DNA of 64,000 nt, from positions 2,170,001 to 2,234,000 of the forward strand of contig NC_082613.1 of NCBI RefSeq assembly GCF_030936135.1. The letters run 5' to 3'. The position numbers and the translations under genes were made by a program. Positions 21,201-24,200 of the stretch are shown here, in pieces (position 1 is the stretch's first letter; each line of letters begins with the position of its first letter). This DNA is from Gavia stellata. Taxonomy: Eukaryota; Chordata; Aves; Gaviiformes; Gaviidae. The notes beneath the pieces were generated by a model. That model saw only the letters and a list, made by a program, of their open reading frames with translations, did no database searches and was not told the DNA's origin.

Positions 21201-24200
21201 TTTGCTAAGCTCATCCCTGTTCCCCGCTTTATGGTGTTAGTTACCATACCCAGTGTCCAAACTCATAGCAGTTATTGCACTCTATATGATGCTGTTTAAT
21301 TTGCAAGAAGCATGTGAAAGAAGAGGCAAGGGGCAGAGTCCTGAGCCGAGAAGAGAAATGAAGGCTTGACTCCCATGCCACATGCTTTTAGGCCTTGCCA
21401 GATTGTTGGTCTGAGTAGAGCTACTTCTCATCGACAGCAATATCTGATGAGACTCAATTCCTGCCTACATATGTTTGATTTCAACTATACCAAGAATATA
21501 TTGGAAAGCTGTAGGTTTTGGGGGCTAGGTTCTTGTTAGCTTTGTCTAGTGCAGTCCATCTCCTAGAGAGGCAGAGGGCATAGACTGGATGGATGGGTCT
21601 CTTTTCATCACTGCCCTTTTCAAAAGAATCAAAGGGTAGCTAGAGCAAAGGCCAAGACGCCATTTGATAGAAGGGGTGTGTAAATCAAAATAGCAAACTA
21701 TCTAGATTTGTATCTCAGAAATACTGAGCCTGGGGGCCCCTTGCCTGGTTGGAAGTTGTTGACCTTGTGTTTCTCTTGTCTTACAGATGACTATATTGCC
21801 ATTGGCGCTGACTGTGAGCACATAGCAGCCCAGATTGAAGAATATATCCTTCTTTTATGGGGCTTCCTCAAGGGCCTGCATGTCTCTAGGTCATTAATTT
21901 AATGTGCTCAGAGGGAAAATGGGACAGCCTTTCTTTGTGTAAATGTTCTGCTGCAACTCTGCTTGTCAGGGCTCTGGTTCTGGTTGCAGCTCTGCTTGGC
22001 TGAGTCCTGGGTCACTAATGAACCACCAGTGTGATGTTGGGAGCTCAGGGCAGACCCCTTGCTGGTGTGACAGACATGGTTATTTCCTTCCTGTTCACAC
22101 CATATTGGACTGTAATCCCCAGTTTGTCCCTCCCGTAAAAATGCTATTTCCTGCTCTCAGCTCTGCTTCCAAATACATGCAACTTCCCTGTGCCTCCCTG
22201 TTGAGAGTGTGCTGATACAGACAAAAGCTATGGGAAGGATGGAGCAATGAGGATCAAGTTGCATGTTGATTTGAGATAAGCCAGGAGTTTGCTTGGTTTG
22301 GGGGCTGTGGGGTAGGAGGTGCCACTGGGCTCTTAGTGGGGGGTTTTGCGGCTACCTTGCTGAGGGAAAGAGCAGGCTGAAGAACCTGAGCGTAACTGAA
22401 AATAAAGATTATTTCCAGCACAGTGAAAAAGCCAGAACTGAAAGCTGCTGAACTCTGGGATTGTATAAGCCTGCTCTCAAATCCAGCATTAATCTCCCAG
22501 AGCAGACACTGCTGTTGGGTCCCAGCACCCTCATCTGTGTCCTGGCAGCACGTAATGCTCCCTGCTATTCACGAGTGGTGTAGAAAGTGCTTAGAGGCCT
22601 CTGGGTTGATTGCAAGCTCCTTAACTGCCATGTACGCATATACCAAGATGTCAAGAACACCGACATGAAATACAAAAACCGAGTGAGGAGCCGCATCTCG
22701 AATCTGAAGGACTCCAAAAATCCTGAGCTGAAAAAGAATGTGCTGTGTGGGGCGATTACCCCTGAGCAGATCGCGGTGATGACCTCGGAGGTGAGGAAGC
22801 CTGAGAGCAGGGTTTGCTTCTTACAGGGGATGTGTCCTGTGGTTTGGCTTGAAGCAAGGGGCTGGTCTGCTGCCGGAGTTGCAGATTTCTCAGCTGCCAC
22901 TGCCAGAGCGCATGGGGAGTGAGGTAGCAATGGGGTTTGCAACGTGGAGAGTAGTCTGTTGGGACTTTAGATCATCATGGGGGCCTAGGTATGAACCAGA
23001 AACCAGGAATGAAAGGCTTTCTGTCTCAATACCCATCTGTTAGGCCACCCTGTCCTGTTGACTCTTTCCACTGTAGTGGGTGTGGTGGTAAAACTGGACA
23101 GATGTGATTTTATTGCCTTTTTTGAAAGGAAATGGCCAGTAATGAGCTGAAAGAGATCAGGAAAGCTATGACGAAAGAAGCAATCCGGGAGCATCAGATG
23201 GCCAAGACAGGAGGGACGCAGACTGACCTCTTCACCTGTGGGAAATGCAAGAAGAAGAACTGCACCTACACCCAGGTTAGTCTTCCTGCTCCTATGGCCT
23301 CCACACTGTTGACCTCTGCACAGGACATGATCCCTCATGGTCACCAGCTCTTAGTGATTCTGTGATGCTGTGCTCTGTGACAGGCCCTGCAGCATGGCAC
23401 AAATTTTGCCACTGGTGGAGAGAACCTTTTTGTACACTCAAGGGTCTCTAAAATGTGCTGCTTTTGCACAGTGATTTTTACACAAGCTCCAAGGAAAGAT
23501 GTGTGCAGCTTTTTGGCTCATTTGTACAAGAGCAGGGGTTTTGCAGCACTAAGGAAGCTCTCAAAAGTACAGCAGTGCTGCTTGCTGCGCAGCTCGGGAG
23601 AGCTGCACATTGAAAGCAGGTGCTGGGAATGTGGAGATTCAGACAAGAAGGGAGTGGGTAGTGCAGAGGAGAGAGACCGCAGAAACCGAGGCAGGCATGT
23701 TGGTGGTATTAAAAGTGCAAATTAAAATGTAGATAAGCTGCGGCTGGACAAATCCCAACTTAAAATCAAACAACATGAAACAGGTGAAACATAAGGAATA
23801 AACAAAGCAGTGATGTGAGCAGGCAGAGGGGATTTTTCTCCTCAGTGGACAGCTGCTGGAAGCCTTGTGCATTACCAGCGCTTTTTAGTTCCCATGTTTG
23901 TGCCAGGCATCTGGAGATAAATGTGCCTTTGCTGTGAGTCAGTGTTTTAGAATGTGCAGATACCCAAAAATGCACCAGCAACCACGCAATTGCTACTGAG
24001 TGGGTGCGCACAAACTGCGTGTGCAAGTGCTGAGTGAAACTCCTTTGTATGCTTGGACGTGATGTGCAAACGCAGATGAGAGCCAGGCAGCTGACCAGGG
24101 ATTTTCCTTTGGCTCAGCAGCAGTCTTGCATCCCGCAGGCTGGCTCAGGCAAGAGGCCTCGCTCTGCGAGTGCATCCCAGTAAGTCAGCTGGGAGCACTG

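Follow-up and report, generated by a model that had tools for sequence, protein, structure and literature searches.

A predicted U12-type AT-AC intron in the TCEA2 gene of Gavia stellata

The window analyzed here is a stretch of 64,000 nucleotides (nt) of Gavia stellata DNA (assembly GCF_030936135.1, contig NC_082613.1, positions 2,170,001 to 2,234,000), and our subject is the sixth intron of a gene within it that an earlier, sequence-only reading had called TCEA2. The coding model of this gene is as follows:

9221-25977, forward strand: TCEA2 coding model, 10 exons, 300 amino acids (aa), one open frame
9221-9289, 12022-12084, 12754-12859, 14329-14419 and 20197-20330, forward strand: exons 1 to 5
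21787-21843, 22636-22790, 23129-23275, 25276-25347 and 25969-25977, forward strand: exons 6 to 10
21787-21843, forward strand: exon 6, 57 nt, its last base being the T of a split TGC Cys codon (phase 1)
22636-22790, forward strand: exon 7, 155 nt

As judged from its predicted product, the forward-strand locus is a complete TFIIS gene, probably TCEA2. The protein ends in CGNRWKFC and is identical to a working version of the human TCEA1 sequence at 210 of 302 aligned positions (70%). Its C-terminal 146 aa match the Pfam families TFIIS_M (PF07500, 2.7e-32) and Zn_ribbon_TFIIS (PF01096, 6e-19), PF03108 reaching 21.8 bits in the same scan, below the cut-off of 25, and these 146 residues can be aligned without gaps, the intron 6 join included, to the solved TCEA1 chains 9eh1, 5iy6 and 7unc. 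A solved chain of TCEA2 itself, 2lw4, likewise aligns gap-free over 85 residues across the intron 6 join, and where TCEA1 and 2lw4 differ (e.g. in QIEEC) the model has the residues of 2lw4, in a comparison that covers the shared central stretch of these two proteins. The gene call of the sequence-only reading agrees with this model, TCEA2 being the probable paralogue. GT-AG ends are found at eight of the nine introns of the model; the remaining one is intron 6, for which the following features were recorded:

21844-22635, forward strand: intron 6, predicted AT-AC U12-type intron, 792 nt, phase 1
21844-21851, forward strand: 5′ splice site ATATCCTT, an exact match to RTATCCTT
22618-22625, forward strand: branch motif TCCTTAAC, an exact match, with A22624 or A22623 as candidate branch point
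22634-22635, forward strand: 3′ terminal AC, 11 nt after A22624

Exon 6 ends in CAGATTGAAGAAT at 21843 and exon 7 starts with GCATATACCAAGAT at 22636, the split codon being T/GC for Cys in the join QIEE-C-IYQD. The intron itself begins with ATATCCTTCTTT at 21844 (given at greater length, ATATCCTTCT) and ends in CTCCTTAACTGCCATGTAC at 22635, its last base lying 11 nt from the second A of the branch motif (22624) and 12 nt from the first (22623). The coordinates, the AT-AC ends, the branch motif and the 11-nt spacing previously read from the sequence were all recovered exactly.

For U12-type introns, the literature gives the consensus RTATCCTTT with a branch motif UCCUUAACU (PMC2846911), a branch-to-acceptor optimum of 11-13 nt, and either A of the branch motif as a possible branch point (PMC3584512). 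Intron 6 matches this published sequence definition except for the C at position 9 (PMC3584512, PMC2846911): the branch motif expected near the 3′ end, similar to UCCUUAAC, is present as TCCTTAAC, the distance of 11 or 12 nt from branch to 3′ splice site lies within the optimum, and the terminal AT and AC, which place the intron in the AT-AC subtype, are confirmed by the coding join. On these sequence features, intron 6 of TCEA2 is almost certainly an AT-AC member of the U12-type (minor) class, predicted to be removed by the U11/U12-U4atac/U6atac.U5 spliceosome. With the U12-type AT-AC introns of the kind recorded in U12DB, IAOD and MIDB it shares the 5′ splice site, the branch motif, the branch-to-acceptor distance, the AT-AC ends and a non-zero phase, as well as the situation of being one such intron among the otherwise GT-AG introns of its gene; no difference other than position 9 was found in this comparison of sequence features.

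Some observations weigh against this assignment. Intron position 9 is a C where the consensus has a T. Pyrimidines make up 65% of positions −20 to −4 of intron 6 versus 71, 76, 76 and 94% at four other TCEA2 acceptors (four of the other eight were measured, and the 71% value was taken one base off), which means that a polypyrimidine tract can be called missing only weakly. Furthermore, no literature naming TCEA2 intron 6 was found among the matches listed, the supplementary tables with minor-intron lists lying outside the search. TCEA had no main-text match in the minor-intron papers PMC6865273, PMC2846911, PMC7367187 and PMC10639083, nor in the main text of PMC4506483. TCEA2 is named in PMC7469106 only as one of the genes with altered splicing in SF3B1-mutant disease, the plant TFIIS paper PMC8886746 applies ‘U12-type’ only to introns misspliced in its mutants, and TFIIS is present in PMC6201815 only in a reference.

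It could also be that intron 6 is a U2-type intron for which a nearby GT-AG or GC-AG pair is used at the price of a slightly changed protein. To its credit, a local enumeration of GT-AG, GC-AG and AT-AC pairs (donors up to 57-60 nt away, acceptors up to 60 nt away) yielded 255 pairs, 63 of which are in frame, free of stops and within 20 aa of the original length, seven of these being GT-AG. However, all seven alter the protein, and the 62 pairs other than the AT-AC pair cause insertions, deletions or substitutions around the conserved QIEECIYQDV. Only four of the 63 leave the length unchanged, and the AT-AC pair is the only one of the four in which the join QIEEC-IYQD is kept. Moreover, GT is absent between its occurrences at 21814 and 21882. 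A U2-type intron with shifted ends is very improbable. Sliding both boundaries together by −9 to +9 nt (19 same-length shifts) gave QIEECIYQD from shift 0 only. The claim of the sequence-only reading that no other boundary restores the protein join is upheld by this enumeration, since a single one of the 255 local pairs keeps it. A second AC is present 8 nt beyond the acceptor (22636-22643, GCATATAC), 19 nt from A22624 and so outside the 11-13 nt optimum; since the pairing of this AC at 22643 with the 21844 donor is absent from the in-frame pairs, its use would shift the frame.

The same boundaries might instead belong to a rare AT-AC intron spliced by the major spliceosome, given that U2-type AT-AC introns exist and that an intron's class does not follow from its termini (PMC3584512). 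Among the U2-type introns of chicken, however, AT-AC ones are listed at 0.01% (PMC7367187, Table 2), and we regard this possibility as extremely improbable.

Taken alone, neither motif is significant. RTATCCTT occurs twice in the window versus a shuffle mean of 1.76, and TCCTTAAC once versus 1.28; the counts being close to the shuffle means, neither 8-mer carries weight by itself in 64 kb. One might thus think of a decayed or misassembled TCEA2 copy with motifs present by chance, as each 8-mer by itself is expected in a sequence of this size. Against such a copy speak the one open frame through all 10 exons, the GT-AG ends of the other eight introns, and the coincidence of both motifs at a junction that the protein fixes independently. 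Under a first-order Markov model, the probability of the donor at this junction is 6.4e-6 and that of the branch motif, with five registers allowed, 4.7e-5, and the probability that both stand there by chance is very small. The likelihood of such a decayed or misassembled copy verges on the negligible. When the position was left free, ATATCCTT and TCCTTAAC, separated by 60-5000 nt on one strand or the other and followed by an AC at the right distance, were found together in 4 of 300 simulated windows (64-kb first-order Markov sequences), and no second pair of this spacing is present in the window. The other RTATCCTT lies at 25358-25365 on the reverse strand, and three further TCCTTRAC motifs are located at 14866 (forward), 54870 (reverse) and 4492 (reverse).

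Early AT-AC lists and databases probably include a U12-type intron in Xenopus TFIIS and in human TCEA1, TCEA2 and TCEA3, the Xenopus gene probably being one of the earliest AT-AC cases. The position of the intron in these genes is probably that of TCEA2 intron 6, after the QIEE codons, and the intron is probably ancient and common to other vertebrate TFIIS genes. As a kind, TCEA2 intron 6 is certainly known already; as an instance, very probably so. In nearly every genome, U12-type introns stay below 0.5% of all introns (PMC3584512, PMC10639083), and AT-AC introns account for 18% of the U12-type introns of Gallus gallus (PMC7367187, Table 2), figures that agree with the earlier statement that AT-AC introns are rare. 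The entries of U12DB number 398 for chicken and 691 for human (PMC7367187). Since chicken has kept 94% of the minor introns of human (PMC10639083), TCEA2 intron 6 is most likely old and already catalogued.

If, as we infer, the minor spliceosome is used for intron 6, ATATCCTT would be recognized by U11 and then by U6atac, and U12 would pair with TCCTTAAC, one of the two A residues being bulged as the branch point and the AC 11-12 nt downstream of it serving as acceptor. In this type of splicing, U11/U12 recognize both motifs together, U4atac/U6atac.U5 joins, and the same two steps take place as in U2-type splicing. By the reasoning that is standard for all genes with such introns, TCEA2 output would depend on the minor spliceosome (U11/U12/U4atac/U6atac). 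The sequence-only reading had stressed in this connection that the intron lies in a general elongation factor, which was overstated, TCEA2 being one of three vertebrate TFIIS paralogues. Were intron 6 retained, translation would run into a stop:

21900-21902, forward strand: in-frame TAA upon retention of intron 6, following 19 codons (split codon included)

The protein would then lose its zinc ribbon and the greater part of the TFIIS central domain, and, judging from the class of the intron, decay of the intron-6-retaining mRNA would be likely. TFIIS rescues stalled RNA polymerase II. One could thus imagine the minor intron of TCEA2 as a regulatory valve, in which low U6atac would lead to retention (with the stop at 21900), retention to less TFIIS, and less TFIIS to a feedback on elongation and on co-transcriptional splicing; we consider such a valve unlikely, a long shot at best. 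The speed of U12-type splicing is itself disputed: reports of slow splicing are cited in PMC6201815, which finds efficient co-transcriptional splicing.

The reading of intron 6 is supported and the finding ordinary, the intron being of a rare but well-known vertebrate kind. It constitutes a clean case of a rare class that gene finders based on GT-AG ends can misplace, and for this reason automatic annotations of TCEA2 should be checked at the exon 6/7 junction. TCEA2 would also be one of several hundred vertebrate genes predicted to suffer when minor-spliceosome function is lost.

Downstream of TCEA2, an RGS domain in two pieces was detected on the reverse strand at 30066-31197, in the overlapping open reading frames (ORFs) 30364-31197 (5e-17) and 30066-30707 (8.8e-13). 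The two pieces are probably two exons of RGS19 adjoining TCEA2, and the placement of the domain downstream of the TCEA2 model fits the human gene order TCEA2-RGS19. They were the only matches in a Pfam context scan of 20 of the window's 202 stop-to-stop ORFs that reach 110 aa (2 of 20, both RGS). OPRL1, SOX and MYT1 were also expected nearby (OPRL1 and SOX as neighbors in human); segments of OPRL1, the SOX HMG-box and the MYT1 fingers gave no credible match in the window, with none at a cut-off of E 0.01 and, when this was relaxed to E 10, none below E 0.31, in a search that detected the TCEA1 control.

No Rfam family reached its gathering score in the window. This includes the region of an ARAGORN call of a 98-nt tRNA-Arg(CCT) at 50375-50472 on the reverse strand, which is probably a false positive. 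Imperfect tandem repeats with periods from 26 to 112, in which GCACCC and CACCAG are frequent, extend over about 1.1 kb at 47396-48500. They fall within long open frames of both strands (the ORF scanned there, 46220-48676 on the forward strand, had no Pfam match).
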